Part shown: positions 15,548 to 37,716 of the stretch, in pieces | Numbering within the stretch: the stretch's first letter is position 1 | How the letters are laid out: the number at the start of each line of letters is the position of its first letter | Source: Azotosporobacter soli | GTDB lineage: Bacteria > Bacillota > Negativicutes > SG130 | Length of the DNA stretch: 64,000 nt | NCBI RefSeq assembly: GCF_030542965.1 | Contig: NZ_JAUAOA010000004.1 | Span: forward strand, 124,001-188,000 | Reading direction: 5' to 3' | Notes under the pieces: generated by a model | Seen by the model: the letters and a program-made list of their open reading frames with translations, nothing else | Told to the model about the DNA's origin: nothing | The model's database searches: none | Made by a program: the position numbers and the translations under genes

Positions 15548-15709
15548 TTGCGCTTTGAATGCTTTGCAAAGCGAATAAATGTAAAAGCGTGGCTCGCATG
15601 GGCAGGGATTCGGCTGCGGCGACGCGAAGGAACTGATACATGAAATTTACCAAGCCGTGTGCGCAAGGCGCCGTTAAAAGATTTCGTTTGAGGCGAAGGG
15701 GTGGGAAAT

Positions 15710-18700
15710 ATGGATGAACAGCAGCGTCATCGATTATTGCATGAACTGAGCGGCAGTCCGTTTCGCGAAGAGTATTGCCGCGATGAGTTTCTGCATGAGA
15801 TGTTTGAAAAGAACGCGGATCAGCAGCCGGAGAAAATGGCGCTGGAATGCCGCACGACCAAGCTCACGTACCGCGAGCTGGAGGAACGCAGCAACCGGTT
15901 GGCCGCTTATCTGCGCCGCAGTGGTCTAAAGAGCGGCGAGCATGTGATCTTAATGCTCGACAAGACGGAAAACCTGTACATTGCGATGCTGGGCATCATG
16001 AAAGCGGGCGCGGCGTATGTGCCGATCGATTTGTCGTTTCCGGGCGAACGGGTGGAATACATCATCGCCGATTCGGGCGCGCGTTTCTGCATCAGTTCGA
16101 GCGAGATCTGGCAGGCGAAAGGGATCGTGCCGGGTGAAGGCGGCGTGCAGCCAGTCTTGGTGGATCGCGATGCGCCGCAGATTGAGCAGGAAAGCCCGGC
16201 TCGCTTGACGCCGGAAGAAATTGGCCTGAACCGGAGCGCGCTTTTTTCCTCCTGCTACATCATCTATACGTCAGGAACGACCGGCAAGCCGAAAGGCTGC
16301 ATCATTGACCACCGCAACATCTGCAACTATGTGCGCGGCGCGACCGTTACCTACGGCATCAAGGGCGACGATCGCATTTTGCAGTGCGCTTCGGTCGCGT
16401 TTGACGCGTCGCTGGAAGAAATATGGATGGCGTTTGCCAACGGCGGCACGCTGATCGTCGGAACGAAGGAAATTATGCAGGCGGGTGCGCTGTTCGGCGA
16501 AATGATGACGCAGCATCAGGTCACGGTGCTTTCTTGCTCGCCGACCTTGCTCTCGATGGTCGAAAGCGATATGGACACGGTGCGTCTTTTGATCCTTGGC
16601 GGCGAGGCGTGTCCGCACGATCTGGTGAAACGCTGGGCTGGCCCGCAGCGCACGATTTATAATTCGTACGGGCCGACCGAAGCGACGATCGTCGCGACCG
16701 TCGGCGAACTGAAAGCCGATAAGCCGGTGACGATCGGCAAAGCGCTGCCGAATTATCGCACCTACATCGTCGACGAAAAACTGGAGTTGGTCGACATCGG
16801 CGCGGAAGGAGAGCTGTTGATCGCCGGGCCGAGCGTGTCGCGCGGTTATCTGAACATGGACGATCTTGACGCGAAGCGTTTCGTCTTTACGCATAAGATC
16901 ACTGGCGAACCGGACTGCTTCTACCGCACCGGCGATCTGGTCTGTTATACAGAGGACGGCGAGATCGAGTATCATGGACGCGGCGACGATCAGGTCAAGC
17001 TGCGCGGTTTCCGCATCGAACTGTCGGAGATCGAATCGCTTCTGATGCAGGACCCGGCGATTCTTTCGGCGGCGGTCGCGCTGCACCAGACAGGACAGCA
17101 GCTCGCGGCCTACGTCGTCTTGCGCGAAGGGGAAACGATCGACTACAAAGCGCTGCGCGAGACGCTGAAAAAAAAGCTGCCGCCGTACATGATCCCGTCC
17201 TGGCTCGATGAAGTGGCGTCGCTGCCGACGTCGATCAGCGGCAAGATCAACCGCAAGCAGCTGCCGACCGCATTGCAGCCTTTCGTCGACGAGCAGCGCG
17301 AGATCATTGCGCCGCGTACGCCGCTCGAAGAGGAGATCACGGCGGTCTGGAAGGAAGTCTTCAAGCTGAGCGAAATATCGGTGACCGATGATTTCTTCTA
17401 CGATCTCAGCGGCCATTCTTTGCTGGCGGCCGGTGCGGTCTCCAAGCTGCGCAAGCTGGACCGCTTCAAGAGCGTCGCGGTCGGCGACATTTATAAATAT
17501 CCGACGATAGAGGGCTTGGCGAGAAACATCGAAACGTCCGCTGCGCCGCAGCCGTCCGACGTCAAACGTGATTTCTACCATGCAACGACGTCTTCCTACC
17601 TTGCCTGCGCGCTGGCGCAAGGCCTGGCGATTGCCGGATTGTCGCTGCTGCATTTTTGGCAATGGCTGGGCGTGTTCTTCGTCTTCGCCTATCTGTCGAA
17701 CCAAGGTTTCGAAGTGGCACAGGCTGTCGGCTGGGCGATCGCCAGCTATGCGATCGTACTGCCGCTGCTCTTTATCTTCGTGCTGGCGGCCAAATGGCTG
17801 TTGATCGGCAGGCTGAAGGCGGGCAGCTACCCGCTCTGGGGTTCGTATTATTTCCGTTACTGGCTGGTCTGCAAACTGGTCGAGATCCTGCCGCTGAATT
17901 TTTTCGAAGGCAGTCCGGTTTTGCCGTGGTTCTACCGCCTCTTGGGTGCTGAGATCGGCAGCGGCGTATACATGGGCTCAGCCAGTTTGATGACGTTTGA
18001 TCTGCTGCGTGTCGGCAGCGGCGCGACGCTTTGCGCGGGCAGCAGCGTGAGCGGCGCCTGGGTGACGGGCGGACGGCTGTATCTTGCGCCGATTGCAATC
18101 GGCGAGAAATGTCTGGTCGGTAACCGCGCGGTGCTGGCGGGCAATAATGTGATGGGCGACGGTGCGGCGCTCGGCGATATCTCGCTGCTGCCGGAAGGCG
18201 TCAACATCCCATCGCATGAACTTTGGAACGGTTCGCCGGCTGCATTTTCCTCCCCCTGCCATTTGATCAAAAACGAAACGGTCGAATGGTCGGGCGGACT
18301 GGTCGCGCTCTTTGCACTGAGTGCGCTGCTTTTGCCGACGCTGATGGAAAGTCTCTTTTTCCCCGGCCTGCTCTTTATTGAGACGATGATCGAAGTGCCC
18401 GACAGCATCGGAGCCTGGCTCTTGTGTGCGCCGTTTTTGGCGCTGAGCTATATTCTGATTTTGCTGCTGTTGACTTCACTCAGCAAAAAGATCCTGTGCT
18501 TTGATATGAAGGAAGGCTGCTATCCGCTCAACAGTTCCTTCTATTTTCGTTACTGGCTGTTCAGCCAATTGTTCCGGCATGTCGAATCGATGCTCAGCGG
18601 CCTCTTCGGGACGATCTATACCGCCGCTTGGCTGAAAACGCTCGGTTTGCGGCTCGGTAAAGGCAGTGAGGTGTCTTATGTGCGCGACATCATGCCGGAT

Positions 18701-19678
18701 ATGCTGGAAGCGGGCGACGGCTGCTTCTTTGCCGACGATGCCAGCGTCAGCGGCGCGGTGATTGACGGCGGGAAACTGTATCTGAAAAAGACGCGAATCG
18801 GCGATCATAGCTTTATCGGCAACAGCGCGGTCATACCGGCCGGAGCGCAGATCGGCAGCCATTGCCTGATCGGCGTGCTGTCGACGGTGAGCGTGCAGAC
18901 GCCGGTTTCGGATGGCACGTCATGGCTTGGTTCGCCGCCGATCTTTTTGCCGAAACGGCAGAAGGTCGAAGAATTCGGCGACGCGCAGACCTTTACGCCG
19001 TCGGCCAAACTGATCTGGCAACGGCGGCTGATCGATTTTTGCAAGATCCTCTTGCCGATGACGATCTTTATCAGCCTGGCCTGCATTGTGATCCAACTGG
19101 TGTTCAGCGATTTTGGCGCGAGCCGCATCGAAGTCCTGCTCGCGCTGATGCCTCTCATTTATATCAGCGCGGGCATCGCCTGCATCCTGCTGTTTGCGCT
19201 GCTGAAGCAGCTGTTGGTGGGCCGCTACAAACCCGGCGTGCATCCGCTCTGGAGCCTTCATGTCTGGCTGGCGGAACTGCTCACAGGTTTGTATGAAGAC
19301 CTGGTCGTGCAGTTCTTCTACCGGGTCTTATGCGGCACGCCCTATGCGGCGTGGGTGCTGCGCTGTCTCGGCGTGAAGGTGGGACGGCGCAGCTATATCC
19401 AGACCAGCTGGATCACGGAATTCGACATGGTGGAAATCGGCGACGATGTGGCGCTCAATGAGGATGCGAATCTGCAGACGCATCTTTTCGAAGACCGGAT
19501 CATGAAGATCGGCAAGATCACGCTCGGCGATCGCTGCACGGTCGGCGCTTCGGCGACGGTACTCTACGATACCGAACTGGGCGACGGCTGCGAAGTATCG
19601 GATCTGAGTCTGATCATGAAAGGCGAGATGCTGCCTGCAAACACGACCTGGCAGGGCGTGCCGGGACAACGGATTTAA
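15710..19678 (+). CDS. Pls-like NRPS: adenylation, thiolation and three membrane/beta-helix domains
   Basis: This 1322-residue protein is laid out like epsilon-poly-lysine synthetase, which the literature gives as about 1319 residues. The adenylation domain (about 15-515) shows YTSGTTGKPKG (residue 185), NSYGPTEA, YRTGDLV and GKINRK. A thiolation domain follows with phosphopantetheine Ser570 in SGHSLL. The rest alternates membrane helices with three hexapeptide-repeat (left-handed beta-helix) regions near 760-850, 980-1075 and 1225-1320, as in the Pls/TIGR02353 C-terminus. There is no condensation or thioesterase domain. Asp232 and Glu236 line up with Stachelhaus positions 235 and 239. The acidic Glu would suit a basic amino acid, by eye only. 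I prefer the ATG at 15710 over the GTG at 15701 for spacing. Confidence 0.8.
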   Translation: MDEQQRHRLLHELSGSPFREEYCRDEFLHEMFEKNADQQPEKMALECRTTKLTYRELEERSNRLAAYLRRSGLKSGEHVILMLDKTENLYIAMLGIMKAGAAYVPIDLSFPGERVEYIIADSGARFCISSSEIWQAKGIVPGEGGVQPVLVDRDAPQIEQESPARLTPEEIGLNRSALFSSCYIIYTSGTTGKPKGCIIDHRNICNYVRGATVTYGIKGDDRILQCASVAFDASLEEIWMAFANGGTLIVGTKEIMQAGALFGEMMTQHQVTVLSCSPTLLSMVESDMDTVRLLILGGEACPHDLVKRWAGPQRTIYNSYGPTEATIVATVGELKADKPVTIGKALPNYRTYIVDEKLELVDIGAEGELLIAGPSVSRGYLNMDDLDAKRFVFTHKITGEPDCFYRTGDLVCYTEDGEIEYHGRGDDQVKLRGFRIELSEIESLLMQDPAILSAAVALHQTGQQLAAYVVLREGETIDYKALRETLKKKLPPYMIPSWLDEVASLPTSISGKINRKQLPTALQPFVDEQREIIAPRTPLEEEITAVWKEVFKLSEISVTDDFFYDLSGHSLLAAGAVSKLRKLDRFKSVAVGDIYKYPTIEGLARNIETSAAPQPSDVKRDFYHATTSSYLACALAQGLAIAGLSLLHFWQWLGVFFVFAYLSNQGFEVAQAVGWAIASYAIVLPLLFIFVLAAKWLLIGRLKAGSYPLWGSYYFRYWLVCKLVEILPLNFFEGSPVLPWFYRLLGAEIGSGVYMGSASLMTFDLLRVGSGATLCAGSSVSGAWVTGGRLYLAPIAIGEKCLVGNRAVLAGNNVMGDGAALGDISLLPEGVNIPSHELWNGSPAAFSSPCHLIKNETVEWSGGLVALFALSALLLPTLMESLFFPGLLFIETMIEVPDSIGAWLLCAPFLALSYILILLLLTSLSKKILCFDMKEGCYPLNSSFYFRYWLFSQLFRHVESMLSGLFGTIYTAAWLKTLGLRLGKGSEVSYVRDIMPDMLEAGDGCFFADDASVSGAVIDGGKLYLKKTRIGDHSFIGNSAVIPAGAQIGSHCLIGVLSTVSVQTPVSDGTSWLGSPPIFLPKRQKVEEFGDAQTFTPSAKLIWQRRLIDFCKILLPMTIFISLACIVIQLVFSDFGASRIEVLLALMPLIYISAGIACILLFALLKQLLVGRYKPGVHPLWSLHVWLAELLTGLYEDLVVQFFYRVLCGTPYAAWVLRCLGVKVGRRSYIQTSWITEFDMVEIGDDVALNEDANLQTHLFEDRIMKIGKITLGDRCTVGASATVLYDTELGDGCEVSDLSLIMKGEMLPANTTWQGVPGQRI

Positions 19679-22963: not shown

Positions 22964-23202
22964 TCCTTTTCAGCTGAAAATAAAGAGAAGAAGCCCTTGG
23001 TGACAGGCTCCTCCGAAAAAAATACGTGTGCTATGTTTCTTTTTCCAGTATAGCGGATTGGGACTATGGACGTCAAATGCCAAAGAAGCAGGAGTTTATT
23101 CTTCGAAGCGGGAGTTTCGCTTGAAACGGATGGTATTTTTGGGGCGGGTAGGTTAAAATTAGAGTTGAAATAGTTGGAATAATGCGACGAGGGGGAAACG
23201 GG

Positions 23203-25659
23203 ATGCTGCGCTCAATAAAAAGTCAGCTCTTGATGATCGTTTTTTTGCTCGTTTCCATATCGTTTCTTGTCTCCGGTGCGGTGAACATGTATATGGTGTC
23301 CTCTTCGTTCGAGCGCCACAGCAAAGAAGACAACCTGATGTTCGCCGAAGCGCTGGCGAAGAACGTATACGGTTTTTTCCATAACGCATACAATATCATT
23401 GATGGCTTGGCGAAAAACGGCGAAGTCCGCGAAATGGCGCCGGAAAAACAACGGCAGCTCTTTGTTTCGACGGCGGCGCGCTTTCCGTTTTTCAACAATT
23501 TGTATTCGACCGCGGTTAGCGATGGCATGCAGCTGGCGCGTGCGTACGGGCCGAATGCCAGTCGACGCAACCGGGAATGGTTTAGCGAAATGCGGGAGCG
23601 GGCGGCGCCTTGGACGTATTCGGGTTATACACTCTCTGGTGATGTGGCTGTCGCAGCGATTTTTTCGCCGATTTTTGACAAACGGGGAAATTATGCTGCG
23701 ATTATGGGCGGCGACCTGAAACTGGATTATGTGCAGGATTTAGTGGAACGTTTCAACGAACGACCGGGCAGTTATGCCTGCGTTTTGGACGGTAATGGCG
23801 TAGTGCTCGCTCACCCCGAGCGTGTGCAGTTTCAAGAACGCTACAATTATCAAACGCGCAGCAAGAGTGTAGTTGTCAAAGACGAGCGCGGCAATGTCGT
23901 GTCACTCGCCGAAGGCGGCGAGCAAAAAACGGAAGTGGTTGCCATCGCGATTCCCGATGCGCTGCATGAAATGGCATGGAAGGCCTTGTCGGGCGAAGCA
24001 GGAACGCTCGAATTTCGCGATCTTGAAGGCCGGCAAATGATCGGCGCGTACTATCCGGTCGAGATTCCGGAGGTGCCGAGCCGTTGGGCGGTCATCACCG
24101 TACAGGACAGAGGCGTTGCACTGGCGCTGGTTTATGACGTGACGCGGCGCAATGCCGTAATTGCCACGGTCATTTTGCTGTTGGCGTTTAGTGGCGTCTA
24201 CCTCTTTGTTTCCCGGCGCGTTGTGCAGCCGATCAACGATTTGATTGAAGGAACGGATGAAATTGCCCGGGGCGACTTATCGAAGCGCTTGAAGATAAGC
24301 CGCTTGAAGGAACTGGGGCAATTGGCCAAGGCATACAATGAGATGGCGGAAACGCTGGAGCTGCGGAATCTGGAACGCGAGCGCGACCGTGTGGCGCTCG
24401 CCGCATCGGAGACCAAGTTTTCCAAGGCCTTTCGTTATTATGCGGATGTCATCGGCATCACGCGCCTGACCGACCGGAAGATCGTCGAAGTGAACGAGGC
24501 GTTTTATGAAATTTTCGGCTATCAAGCGCAAGAAGTTCTCGAACATACGACGATGGAAATCGGAATGATGCCGGATACGGAGGAAAATAAGGCGAAAATT
24601 GCGGCGGTGTATCGTGACCTGAACGAAGGGAAGGCGGTGCGCAACCGCGAAGTCGAGTGGCGGACGAAAGACGGCATGAACCGTCTTGGACTATGGTCGG
24701 CCGAAGCGATTGAAATCAACGGCGAACGCTGTTCGATCTTCGCCTGGAAAGATATCAGCGAGCTGAAAAAGGCGCAGCAAGAGTTGCAGGAGGCGCACAA
24801 TGAACTGGAAGTGAAGGTGGAGCTGCGGACGCAGGAACTGACCGCGCTGAATGAAGAACTGGTCGCCAGCAATGAAGAGCTGTCGAATGCGCTGGCGGAG
24901 CTGCGCCGAACGCAGGATCAGCTGGTGCGTTCGGAAAAAATGGCGGCGCTTGGCGGTCTGGTGGCTGGAGTGGCGCATGAGATCAACACGCCGATCGGCA
25001 GTAGCGTGACGGCGGCGTCGCATCTGACCGTGATTTCGAAGGAGCTGCGCGAGGCCTATCAGCTGCAAAAACTGGGCACGCGGCAATTTGTCGAATACAT
25101 GGAAGACTGCCTGGAAGGCGCGAGAATCATTCAGGTCAATTTGGAACGCGCCGCCCGATTGGTGAAAAGTTTCAAACAGGTGTCGGCTGATCAGGTGAGT
25201 GAGACAAAACGCGTCTTTAAGGTAAAGGAATATCTCGAGGAAGTGTTGCTCAGCATTCAGCCGCATTATAAACGGACGAAACATCGCATCGTGACCGAAT
25301 GTGACGAGGAGCTCGAAGTCGATACCTTTCCCGGCGCTTTTTCGCAGATCATCACGAATCTGCTGATGAATTCGATTCTACACGCCTATGATGAGTCGGA
25401 TGAGGGAAAGATGACGATCAGGGTCTATAAAGAAGACGAGTGTCTGGTGCTCGATTATGCCGATGACGGCAAAGGCATGGCGAAACATGTGCAGGAACGG
25501 ATTTTTGACCCTTTCTTCACGACGAAGCGTGGGGTAGGCGGAACCGGCTTGGGATTGTATGTTGTCTACAATATTATTACCCAGCAACTCGGAGGCAGCA
25601 TTCGATGCGAGAGTGAACCGGGCAGAGGGACGAAATTTCATATCCGGATGCCGCTCTGA
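23203..25659 (+). CDS. Membrane sensor histidine kinase with Cache, HAMP and PAS domains
   Basis: This 818-residue kinase has a membrane helix at residues 9-31, an extracellular Cache-type domain (about 35-305), a second helix (about 315-335), a HAMP (RRVVQPINDLIEGTDEIARG) and a PAS domain (about 405-525). A coiled coil comes next, then an H-box (MAALGGLVAGVAHEINTPIG) and an HATPase domain with NLLMNSILHAY, DDGKG, FFTTKRG and GTGLGLYVVYNI. The His in VAHE is the likely phosphorylation site. GAGGGGGAA precedes the chosen ATG. No response regulator is adjacent. The nif operon follows by 460 bases on the same strand, so a role in nif control is possible but untested. The kinase at 58167 is a shorter relative. 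Confidence 0.85.
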   Translation: MLRSIKSQLLMIVFLLVSISFLVSGAVNMYMVSSSFERHSKEDNLMFAEALAKNVYGFFHNAYNIIDGLAKNGEVREMAPEKQRQLFVSTAARFPFFNNLYSTAVSDGMQLARAYGPNASRRNREWFSEMRERAAPWTYSGYTLSGDVAVAAIFSPIFDKRGNYAAIMGGDLKLDYVQDLVERFNERPGSYACVLDGNGVVLAHPERVQFQERYNYQTRSKSVVVKDERGNVVSLAEGGEQKTEVVAIAIPDALHEMAWKALSGEAGTLEFRDLEGRQMIGAYYPVEIPEVPSRWAVITVQDRGVALALVYDVTRRNAVIATVILLLAFSGVYLFVSRRVVQPINDLIEGTDEIARGDLSKRLKISRLKELGQLAKAYNEMAETLELRNLERERDRVALAASETKFSKAFRYYADVIGITRLTDRKIVEVNEAFYEIFGYQAQEVLEHTTMEIGMMPDTEENKAKIAAVYRDLNEGKAVRNREVEWRTKDGMNRLGLWSAEAIEINGERCSIFAWKDISELKKAQQELQEAHNELEVKVELRTQELTALNEELVASNEELSNALAELRRTQDQLVRSEKMAALGGLVAGVAHEINTPIGSSVTAASHLTVISKELREAYQLQKLGTRQFVEYMEDCLEGARIIQVNLERAARLVKSFKQVSADQVSETKRVFKVKEYLEEVLLSIQPHYKRTKHRIVTECDEELEVDTFPGAFSQIITNLLMNSILHAYDESDEGKMTIRVYKEDECLVLDYADDGKGMAKHVQERIFDPFFTTKRGVGGTGLGLYVVYNIITQQLGGSIRCESEPGRGTKFHIRMPL

Positions 25660-25734: not shown

Positions 25735-25763
25735 TTGTCAAGCTGGAAAAACTATGATAGAGT
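25735..25763 (+). promoter_or_regulatory. Candidate promoter of the nif leader region
   Basis: TTGTCA (25735-25740), 17 bases, then TAGAGT (25758-25763) resembles a sigma-70 promoter. It lies just before the two hairpins. The -10 box is poor, so this is tentative. Confidence 0.3.
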
Positions 25764-25797
25764 AACAACAAAATAAATAAGTCGGCAAAAAGCGATG

Positions 25798-25834
25798 AAG
25801 CTTACAGATGCATGATGCGCCTGTAAGCTTTTTG
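25798..25834 (+). terminator. First terminator-like hairpin upstream of nifH
   Basis: AAGCTTACAG (25798-25807) pairs perfectly with CTGTAAGCTT (25821-25830) and is followed by TTTGTCTTTT. It could end the kinase transcript or act as an attenuator in the nif leader. Confidence 0.6.
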
Positions 25835-25875
25835 TCTTTTGAGAGAAGAATCTCCGAAGCCGCTTATGAGCAATG

Positions 25876-25913
25876 AAGCTTATAAACGTAATGCGCGTTT
25901 ATAAGCTTTTTGC
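25876..25913 (+). terminator. Second terminator-like hairpin upstream of nifH
   Basis: AAGCTTATAAACG (25876-25888) pairs perfectly with CGTTTATAAGCTT (25896-25908), followed by TTTGCC. Its left arm and flank (ATGAAGCTTA) repeat those of the first hairpin, so the two look like diverged duplicates. Confidence 0.6.
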
Positions 25914-25954
25914 CTAAAGGAGGTGGTTGCAGCGAAAAAAACAAGTGCTGCTAA

Positions 25955-26047
25955 AAAGAAAAATGCTCCATGAGTACCGCAAATACTCATGGAGCGCAGG
26001 CTGCGTCATGTTCCCCAGTGGTCGCCAGGGTTTATTCAGCATACCCA
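25955..26047 (-). ncRNA. Candidate small RNA antisense to the nif leader
   Basis: On the minus strand a good sigma-70 promoter (TTGAAA, 18 bases, TATAAT) would start a transcript near 26047. About 50 bases on, it reaches a perfect 12-bp hairpin (arms 25984-25995 and 25965-25976). That is followed by ATTTTTCTTTTT, a complete Rho-independent terminator. The stretch between has no start codon with a worthwhile frame and contains a small CCC/GGG hairpin around TGG-CGA-CCA. The predicted RNA is about 93 bases. It would overlap the region just upstream of nifH and, if nif is transcribed from further up, the nif leader. I match it to no known RNA family. Ends are estimates. Confidence 0.6.
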
Positions 26048-26053
26048 TTGTTC

Positions 26054-26083
26054 ATTATAAGGCACAAAGCAAACTGTTTTCAA
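26054..26083 (-). promoter_or_regulatory. Sigma-70-type promoter of the candidate small RNA
   Basis: Read on the minus strand: TTGAAA (26083-26078), an 18-base spacer and TATAAT (26059-26054). Both boxes are near consensus. It points away from nifH, whose start is 40 bases to the right. Confidence 0.6.
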
Positions 26084-26094
26084 GCGATAAATAA

Positions 26095-26943
<849 letters not shown>

Positions 26944-35797: not shown

Positions 35798-35831
35798 AAG
35801 ATAATCTGCAATGAGGAGGGGGAGGATAGGG

Positions 35832-36902
35832 ATGGCAACAGCAATACAATGGATCGATCAAACCCTTGGTTTGGGCCTGCAGCAGGGCTTGAAAGGGCTT
35901 AAACTGGAACTGCTGCTAGATAATTTATTAAAGCTGCCGATCGGCGTTATGGATGTGTGGATCGAAGATTGGAAGCACTGTGGCCTCAAATGGCCGGAGC
36001 TAACTTCGTATCCGCAGCTGCGGGGAAAAGTGACGGCCGATCCTGCTCAAGTTTTTGCTGCGCAGCAGCTGGGGTTTAAGAAAATTCTCTTGTCGTACCG
36101 TCATGACGAAATGGCAGACATGGAGGGCCTTAAAGAAGCCTTGCGAGCGGCTGAGGGCCTTAGCCTAGAAGCGGATCTGCTTCTAGAGAATGCGTCGGCA
36201 ATTTCTACAAGGGAAGTTGTTGCACTGGCAAAAGAATTACACTGTTTTTCGATTCGTGGCTTTGCATACGGCGACGAAGAAAGTCGCTTAGAGCCTCTTG
36301 CTGCATTGGAACAACTTGCGTTTTTGCAGACGAAGTTGCCGATGGAAATGGAATTTCATGGACATAACGCTTATGGCTTGGCAACGGCCAATGCCTTGAG
36401 CGCGATTCGCGTCGGCATTAGGCATATTGCCGCAACGGCCGGAAATTTGACGAGAAATGGCTATGCGCCATTGGAAGAAGTGGTTATGGGCAGCAAGATA
36501 TTGTTGGGCGAAGAAACCACAGGCACGGAAAAATTTGTCGACGCGTGTGAAGGAATCGCAGCTTGTTTTGATGCGGCATTGCCGGTGAATAAGGCGATTG
36601 TCGGCAAACATGTTTTTGCGCATGAATCGGGGCTGCATGTGGATGGCGTGATAAAAAATCCATCGTTGTATGAAGCCTTTTCTCCAAAGGACGTCGGTGC
36701 AGTGCGGAGACTGGTAATCGGCAAGCATTCGGGAACCGCTTCGCTGAAAAATTGTTTGGCCGGCTTTGGCATCAGCCTGGCTTCGGAGGCCGGAAAAAAT
36801 TTATTGCAAAAAGTAAGGCGCTTAGCGGTACTGCAAAAAAGAGCTCTGACGGAGGAACAGCTTTTGCAGTTATACTGTGAGAGCAATCGGCAGGTGGTGT
36901 AA
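35832..36902 (+). CDS. nifV-omega: Homocitrate synthase omega subunit, catalytic start motif degenerate
   Basis: This 356-residue protein has a homocitrate/isopropylmalate-synthase barrel and the C-terminal part of NifV (GKHVFAHESGLHVDGV, then VIGKHSGTASLK). The barrel start is altered: where the family has DTTLRDGEQ this one reads DQTLGLGLQ (residues 10-18), losing the catalytic Arg and metal-binding Asp. It still has EFHGHNAYGLATANAL. In Clostridium pasteurianum homocitrate synthase is made of NifV-omega and NifV-alpha, and this gene and the next fit that arrangement. Homocitrate is a ligand of FeMo-co. GGAGGGGGAGG lies upstream. I used the ATG at 35832. Confidence 0.85.
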   Translation: MATAIQWIDQTLGLGLQQGLKGLKLELLLDNLLKLPIGVMDVWIEDWKHCGLKWPELTSYPQLRGKVTADPAQVFAAQQLGFKKILLSYRHDEMADMEGLKEALRAAEGLSLEADLLLENASAISTREVVALAKELHCFSIRGFAYGDEESRLEPLAALEQLAFLQTKLPMEMEFHGHNAYGLATANALSAIRVGIRHIAATAGNLTRNGYAPLEEVVMGSKILLGEETTGTEKFVDACEGIAACFDAALPVNKAIVGKHVFAHESGLHVDGVIKNPSLYEAFSPKDVGAVRRLVIGKHSGTASLKNCLAGFGISLASEAGKNLLQKVRRLAVLQKRALTEEQLLQLYCESNRQVV

Positions 36903-36903
36903 A

Positions 36904-37716
36904 GTGAGTAGACGGCGGCTGGAAATTGTCGATACGACATTGCGCGACGGCGAGCAAGCCGCGGGTATTGTCTTTAACGCGACGGAAAAACTGGCGATTG
37001 CCAAGGCGCTCGACCAAGCCGGTATTGCCTGGATCGAAGCAGGAACTCCGGCGATGGGCGAAGAGGAGCAGGATGCGATGCGACTGCTTCTCGCCGCATC
37101 GTTGCGGGCTACGATTATTGCCTGGAATCGTGCGGTAAAACAGGATATCTTAGATTCCATATCCTGTGGCTGCTCGTTCTTGCATATTTCCGTGCCGATA
37201 TCGGAGCTTCATATCCGGCATAAGTTCGGCAAAGAGAGAAACTGGGTTCTTGAGCAATTGCAGCGTTCGATCATGTTGGCGAGGAGTTTTGGCTGCGACG
37301 TATCGGTCGGAGCGGAAGATGCTTCGCGCGCCGAAGCGCAGGACTTTTTGCAGGTGGCCGAATTGGCGGCGAAACTCGGCGCGAAACGAATCCGCTATGC
37401 CGATACGATTGGCAGGTTGGATCCGTTAACAACCTACCTGCGTTTATGCGAAATCGTACCGAATTGTCCGTTGCCGATCGAGTTTCACGCACATAATGAT
37501 TTTGGCTTGGCGACGGCCAACACCTTGGCGGCGGCGCAAGCCGGCGTGGCCTTTGCCAGCACGACAGTCTCGGGCTTGGGGGAGCGGGCGGGGAATGCTG
37601 CGCTGGAAGAACTGGTCATGGCGTCGAGCTTGGCGGACTGCGAGCTTTCACTAAAAACGGCTACGTTGAAAGCTTTGATTGGCACGGTTGGCGATGCGGC
37701 AAAACGTTGTCTCTGA
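36904..37716 (+). CDS. nifV-alpha: Homocitrate synthase alpha (catalytic) subunit
   Basis: This 270-residue protein is the catalytic barrel: RLEIVDTTLRDGEQAAGI (residues 5-22) holds the Arg and metal Asp. EFHAHNDFGLATANTL has the metal histidines, and GLGERAGNAALEEL is the family's conserved later motif. It stops where full-length NifV would continue into its C-terminal domain, which the upstream omega subunit supplies. It condenses acetyl-CoA with 2-oxoglutarate to homocitrate. The start is the GTG at 36904, one base after the omega stop, behind AGGTGGTG. It is the last gene of the operon, with a terminator 16 bases on. Confidence 0.88.
   Translation: MSRRRLEIVDTTLRDGEQAAGIVFNATEKLAIAKALDQAGIAWIEAGTPAMGEEEQDAMRLLLAASLRATIIAWNRAVKQDILDSISCGCSFLHISVPISELHIRHKFGKERNWVLEQLQRSIMLARSFGCDVSVGAEDASRAEAQDFLQVAELAAKLGAKRIRYADTIGRLDPLTTYLRLCEIVPNCPLPIEFHAHNDFGLATANTLAAAQAGVAFASTTVSGLGERAGNAALEELVMASSLADCELSLKTATLKALIGTVGDAAKRCL

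Follow-up and report, generated by a model that had tools for sequence, protein, structure and literature searches.

A conserved, structured small RNA predicted opposite the leaders of nitrogenase operons in Negativicutes

In the 64,000-nucleotide stretch of Azotosporobacter soli DNA analysed here (the window), an unannotated small RNA (sRNA) had been predicted on the minus strand, opposite the leader of the nif operon. Conservation of its promoter, fold and position in related genomes strongly supports this prediction, and the RNA predicted opposite the start of nifH is almost certainly a real, conserved sRNA. In the reading that we favour, to which we give a probability of about one half, it would be a structured, cis-encoded antisense regulator of nitrogenase leaders that also carries a recognition core. 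The gene, its promoter and its terminator were located computationally beside nifH:

25953-26049, minus strand: predicted sRNA gene, matched by covariance models R1 (95.5 bits) and R2 (71.6 bits)
26054-26083, minus strand: sRNA promoter TTGAAA-18-TATAAT, sigma-A type, an 11/12 match to the consensus
25953-25995, minus strand: intrinsic terminator, a 12-bp stem followed by ATTTTTCTTTTT, from the sequence and from covariation of the stem
26122-26943, plus strand: nifH, which opens the divergent nif operon (TIGR01287, 456 bits)

Most details of the original prediction are borne out at this locus. The two promoter boxes are present on the minus strand (TTGAAA at 26083-26078 and TATAAT at 26059-26054), and the perfect 12-bp hairpin reads GCTCCATGAGTA-TTTGCGG-TACTCATGGAGC at 25995-25965 of the minus strand, ahead of the tail; its 12 perfect pairs become 14 with G-U pairs included. 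The hairpin had been placed about 50 bases past the promoter and in fact begins 58 bases after the -10 box. The predicted transcript, from about 26047 to 25955 on the minus strand, has the proposed length of about 93 nt and would begin some 75 bases ahead of nifH (ATG at 26122) in divergent orientation, again as proposed. The claim that there is no coding frame between promoter and terminator stands as regards coding, but a leaderless frame, ATG GGT ATG CTG AAT AAA..., is open on the minus strand. This frame (MGMLNKPW...) was rejected as coding because many relatives no longer have the ATG (ATAGG, ACGGG) and the reading frame is not maintained. A scan of 12 kb gave 10 promoter-like sites, of which the sRNA promoter scores highest; about 10 are expected by chance at the 9/12 threshold, and neither promoter-like nor terminator-like sites are enriched in these 12 kb relative to shuffled DNA. 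The sequence of the window is insufficient by itself as proof of a gene; it is the conserved promoter, fold and position that point to one. The outer helix P1, the AAAUAA loop, the leader attenuators, the SD-like motif and the copies at Fe-only operons described below were all absent from the original prediction.

When a 177-nt minus-strand stretch was used as BLASTN query against 60 relatives of the class, three other genomes (G039, G007 and G023) proved to have related sequence directly upstream of nifH and in divergent orientation, the G039 copy being 75% identical to the window sRNA over 114 nt. Covariance model R1 was built from these homologues, and R3 is the final model; E-values of the models built in this analysis are rough. 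Searching with R1 revealed relatives of the sRNA in 54 of 380 Negativicutes-class genomes, often as two tandem copies. A NifH census of the same 380 genomes (TIGR01287) identified full-length NifH in 82, and the sRNA is present in 52 of these 82 vs. 2 of the 298 NifH-negative genomes (Fisher p=6e-40). The two latter cases are a weak match (G112) and a Sporomusa-group genome that is 58% complete (G316). A sensitive re-search of 39 genomes with R3 produced no additional strong copies elsewhere. Among 398 genomes of the phylum outside the class there were only terminator-like false matches, without nif genes, and among 80 named NifH loci strong matches occurred in Negativicutes only, with none in Clostridia or methanogens; a search for homologues with a short DNA pattern had low power. 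The sRNA is found at nifH in Sporomusa ovata, S. acidovorans, S. silvacetica and S. malonica, and also in Pelosinus, Propionispora, Lucifera butyrica and Anaerospora hongkongensis. As judged from these genomes the family is specific to Negativicutes and is predicted to be transcribed independently, from its own vegetative promoter to its own terminator.

To which genes are the copies attached? We took 60 sRNA loci with 4-kb flanks and typed the adjacent operon against NifD and AnfD proteins. Nitrogenase operons are present at 57 of the 60 loci, comprising 38 MoFe nif operons, 17 Fe-only anf operons (AnfD/AnfG being confirmed for the operon at L118) and two of a third type. The orientation is uniform, with the sRNA upstream of the operon and on the opposite strand in all 57 cases. 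The distance between the sRNA and nifH is mostly 50-140 bp; several anf operons have nifI-like and small genes in between, and the sRNA then precedes the first gene. Genomes with both nif and anf operons have one sRNA copy at each, and the anf copies are 77% alike between genomes, whereas likeness between anf and nif copies within one genome is 63%. The copies therefore track operon type rather than genome, and this argues for a role in cis, linked to the operon. The proposal that the RNA regulates nif receives indirect support from this association and from the presence of one copy per operon type; since the sRNA occupies the same spot at nitrogenase operons in most of the operon-bearing Negativicutes tested, it probably tunes nitrogen fixation. 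That one RNA family occurs once per nitrogenase operon type, at MoFe and Fe-only operons, points to an RNA-based layer of control.

Three of the 60 loci lack a nitrogenase operon. In L102 (3900-4500) the sRNA diverges from an operon for an MFS transporter and formate-tetrahydrofolate ligase, the sense leader of which has a ZTP riboswitch upstream, and in L135 (560-960) it diverges from a formate/nitrite-family transporter. Both loci belong to the Sporomusa group, hinting at a possible link beyond nitrogen fixation. The third locus, L143, is a doubtful member of the family, as are the two loci with the third type of nitrogenase (L115 and L125); all have weak scores and no promoter. Separately, second tandem copies of the element occur, mostly at anf operons, in which the 5' box, P2 and a hairpin are kept with no promoter and little of P1 (L087:4001-4093, L086:3925-4017, L095:4240-4345, L104:4001-4101, L108:4202-4304 and others).

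Individual RNAfold folds give the sRNA a common architecture of an outer helix (P1), an internal loop, an inner hairpin (P2) and the terminator, with P1 joining the extreme 5' end (GGGUAAAUU) to the bases immediately before the terminator (AAUUUGCCU). In the window these parts are:

26037-26046, minus strand: 5' strand of P1, GGGUAUGCUG (RNAfold; P1 covariation)
26031-26036, minus strand: core of the internal loop, AAUAAA, for which the family has AAAUAA (near-invariant columns)
26013-26030, minus strand: P2 inner hairpin, CCCUGG-CGACCA-CUGGGG (RNAfold; covariation)
25996-26003, minus strand: 3' strand of P1, CAGCCUGC, abutting the terminator (RNAfold; covariation)

An alignment-free comparison of 40 representatives shows that P1 strands pair with their own partner at -8.3 kcal/mol vs. 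-6.5 +/- 0.3 kcal/mol for permuted partners, with 0 of 20000 permutations as good. In a covariance-model alignment of 58 sequences, double-sided changes are seen in 22 of the 26 pairs, and 88% of cells are paired, vs. 37-44% in slid controls; for the terminator stem, which also covaries, this figure is 98.9%. A MAFFT alignment, which is not fitted to structure, agrees on the double-sided changes. The P1 signal is stronger on the sRNA strand (5.7 sd, with 49 wobble pairs among 319) than on the nif strand (3.4 sd), which is the result expected if selection acts on the minus-strand RNA. The unpaired loop core is nearly invariant: weighted column frequencies of the loop core are A1.00 A0.97 U0.88 A0.99 A0.93, with 0.71 for the sixth base. 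The CC/GG pairs that flank AAAUAA are nearly invariant as well, and the internal loop is well conserved on one strand only. The original prediction expected promoter and hairpin to be conserved together, and this is what we observe: a sigma-A-type TTGA..TATAAT-like element lies just upstream of the RNA in 54 of 56 MoFe and Fe-only loci, vs. 1.1% in shuffles, and both promoter and hairpin are kept in these 54. Promoter, body and terminator of the sRNA are thus each conserved in their own right. Pairing of the 5' AUGGGUA with the 3' arm of the terminator, suggested by similarity, was rejected for lack of covariation, and pairing of the P1 3' strand with the terminator 5' arm does not covary either; neither of these two alternative pairings gave a terminator/antiterminator switch by covariation.

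On the other strand, the nif leader of the window contains the following elements:

25735-25763, plus strand: likely nif operon promoter TTGTCA-17-TAGAGT, TG-extended (consensus match)
25790-25834, plus strand: candidate attenuator 1, AAGC-GATGAA-GCTT overlapping the terminator AAGCTTACAG...CTGTAAGCTTTTTG (sequence)
25870-25912, plus strand: candidate attenuator 2, GC-AATGAA-GC (a hexaloop with A1 and G4) overlapping the terminator AAGCTTATAAACG...CGTTTATAAGCTTTTTG (sequence and relatives)
25916-25926, plus strand: SD-like AAAGGAGGTGG, lacking a suitably spaced start codon (comparison of MoFe leaders, aligned by eye)

Similar TTGC..-17-TATACT/TATAGT elements occupy the same place in MoFe leaders of relatives. 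The nif mRNA most likely begins about 350 nt upstream, a start placed from the promoter consensus only, and would run through two ANTAR-like attenuators. No strong sense promoter is present in the window between the sRNA and nifH, and a sigma-54 promoter for nif was discarded, as no sigma-54 site was found in any of 61 loci. Each of the two terminators in the window leader is associated with one RAWGRR hexaloop, that of the first beginning with G. Across MoFe leaders, at least one hexaloop mini-hairpin is present in 33 of 39 and an SD-like motif (AAGGAGGTG) within 70 nt in 38 of 39, the motif being followed by TTNTATCGA/TATAG in many relatives; it could perhaps be a ribosome-binding site, or a ribosome-bound site that stabilises the mRNA. 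The order in MoFe leaders is promoter, hexaloop attenuator(s), SD-like motif, the region complementary to the sRNA and the nifH ribosome-binding site. The complementary region stops some 70 nt short of the nifH start and so leaves the ribosome-binding site uncovered. In genomes scored as lacking the sRNA, the sequences upstream of 18 NifH loci have neither the paired hexaloops nor the nearby SD-like motif, except G058, in which hexaloops and SD-like motif are both present together with a diverged sRNA copy. As loci without the sRNA are also without the leader module, the two travel together in MoFe operons. Fe-only operons have kept the sRNA and lack the hexaloops.

ANTAR target RNAs consist of dual hexaloop hairpins that follow an A1/G4 rule, and ANTAR control of nitrogenase genes has been predicted in Pelobacter carbinolicus (PMC3369931). 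The nif sense leader resembles them in having hexaloop mini-hairpins that overlap terminators, and the genome encodes one ANTAR response regulator. Its gene adjoins that of a sensor kinase close to groES (G000 contig 9, L144), and it is likely to be the regulator of the two tandem attenuators. ANTAR targets are described as having closely spaced dual hairpins (PMC3369931); the window leader, with one hexaloop per terminator, is a candidate ANTAR target. This likeness belongs to the neighbouring sense leader and not to the sRNA, the P2 and terminator loops of which do not fit A1/G4 hexaloops. A role of the sRNA as an ANTAR decoy was rejected for the same want of suitable hexaloops, and because Fe-only operons have the sRNA without ANTAR-like attenuators.

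How might an RNA in this position act? In the mechanism that we favour, the sRNA, encoded on the opposite strand within the 5' leader of nitrogenase operons, would base-pair along its entire length with the nif or anf mRNA of its own locus, in the part of the leader that separates the attenuators from the first ribosome-binding site. Should nif transcription begin at the upstream promoter, every nif mRNA leader would contain a stretch complementary to the entire sRNA. Pairing would serve as a local brake or processing signal, through formation of a duplex, cleavage by RNase III or loss of structure in the leader, and the brake would be overrun once the operon is fully induced. For expression of the sRNA, coverage of this region by nif transcripts, pairing and braking we argue from sequence throughout. 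The near-invariant unpaired AAAUAA and the conserved fold are needless for a pure antisense RNA, suggesting that something besides its own leader also recognises the sRNA; the core formed by P1, the AAAUAA loop and P2 would probably be bound by a shared trans factor, for example Hfq, of which the genome encodes one, or another RNA-binding protein. Counting against the cis-antisense reading are the nitrogenase-free copies at L102 and L135, the promoterless tandem copies, and the fact that the complementary region stops short of the nifH ribosome-binding site.

The alternative that survives best, although we find it doubtful, is an sRNA acting in trans or by binding protein, in which the core (AAAUAA loop, GGGYA 5' end and P2) binds a common target such as an mRNA seed, Hfq or another protein, and the position in the nif leader merely reflects shared ancestry of the operon control region. 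The near-invariant unpaired nucleotides and the fold conserved across families would suit such a function, as would the two Sporomusa-group copies beside non-nitrogenase genes and the presence of Hfq; yet nearly all strong copies are antisense to a nitrogenase operon leader and follow operon type, not genome, and NifH-positive genomes without the attenuator/SD leader module are also without the sRNA. Less probable, and in our view unlikely, is a ligand-gated antisense RNA, with P1, loop and P2 forming an aptamer that sets termination at 25965 vs. read-through, the latter sweeping antisense polymerases over the nif leader and promoter. The layout of helix, conserved internal loop and helix directly before an intrinsic terminator is aptamer-like, and antisense-acting SAM and cobalamin riboswitches provide a precedent (PMC9943018), but neither alternative pairing tried yields a covarying antiterminator, good conservation is confined to a single strand of the internal loop, and no Rfam aptamer matches. 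The original prediction had offered promoter interference, pairing with leader RNA or action in trans. Interference as the sole mode, whereby a strong divergent promoter would cut sense transcription and the RNA product would be irrelevant, is the least likely of these three, and improbable overall, because the RNA fold is under selection: a near-consensus promoter firing against the leader is indeed kept in the 54 loci, but conservation of P1, P2 and the loop is at the RNA level, and the compensatory changes fall on the sRNA strand. Finally, we consider it very improbable that the conserved block functions chiefly through the nif-sense strand, as a leader element or DNA site to which the minus-strand promoter and terminator are secondary; the palindromic terminator reads on both strands, the promoterless second copies are partly conserved and the SD-like motif adjoins on the sense strand, but the P1 wobble pairs, the stronger covariation and the conserved promoter all belong to the minus strand.

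Structured antisense or regulatory sRNAs are a known kind of regulator; the family, its fold and its tie to the leaders of MoFe and Fe-only operons appear to be new. Rfam (release 15) gives 0 matches above the gathering cut-off for the whole window, and only chance-level matches at relaxed thresholds for three members of the sRNA family. No description of the family was found in the literature on nitrogenase sRNAs, nif antisense RNAs and nif RNA motifs, a search that left subscription journals mostly uncovered. CopA and RNAI typify structured cis-antisense RNAs. The sRNA resembles them in being short, strongly structured and equipped with its own promoter, and in its putative leader overlap; it differs in its location at chromosomal metabolic operons and in an unpaired core that exceeds the needs of antisense pairing. 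NfiS and NfiR of Pseudomonas stutzeri and sRNA154 of Methanosarcina mazei are sRNAs that tune nitrogenase; their described targets are nif mRNAs, among them nifK, nifD, nifH and nrpA (PMC9170634). They share with the Negativicutes sRNA the tie of a small RNA to nitrogenase expression, whereas the latter comes from another lineage, lies opposite an operon leader, occurs once per operon type and has a different fold; no homology to these RNAs was found with Rfam. Antisense-acting riboswitches, namely the ubiG SAM riboswitch of C. acetobutylicum and the cobalamin riboswitch/PocR system of Listeria (PMC9943018), likewise combine a structured RNA and an intrinsic terminator transcribed against the operon that they regulate, but the Negativicutes sRNA is positioned at the operon 5' leader, and no known aptamer, ligand or antiterminator was found for it.

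It is possible, and we put it forward tentatively, that the family represents an undescribed class of structured RNA restricted to Negativicutes, which would serve Mo and Fe-only nitrogenase operons as a built-in antisense controller and whose core would sense a metabolite or protein signal. To our knowledge, the control of nitrogenase transcription in this class is poorly known. If the antisense reading is correct, nitrogenase mRNA would be set by a leader that combines opposed sense attenuators and an antisense RNA. The sRNA is present in cultured Sporomusa ovata, S. silvacetica, S. malonica, Anaerospora hongkongensis and Lucifera butyrica, making direct testing possible, and its covariance model can be deposited and searched.

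Several other genes of the window deserve mention. A dCache-HAMP-PAS sensor kinase (23182-25659, plus strand) lies immediately upstream of the nif leader in this genome. Downstream of the MoFe cluster nifH I1 I2 D K E N B is a gene for an AnfO-family protein (PF09582; 35174-35797, plus strand); the family is named for the Fe-only nitrogenase, yet the member in the window accompanies a MoFe cluster. Two overlapping HMGL-like genes (35811-36902 and 36877-37716, plus strand) resemble a split homocitrate synthase of the NifV omega/alpha type. Unrelated to nif, an NRPS-like protein of 1325 aa with AMP-binding, carrier and hexapeptide-repeat acyltransferase domains is encoded at 15701-19678 (plus strand).
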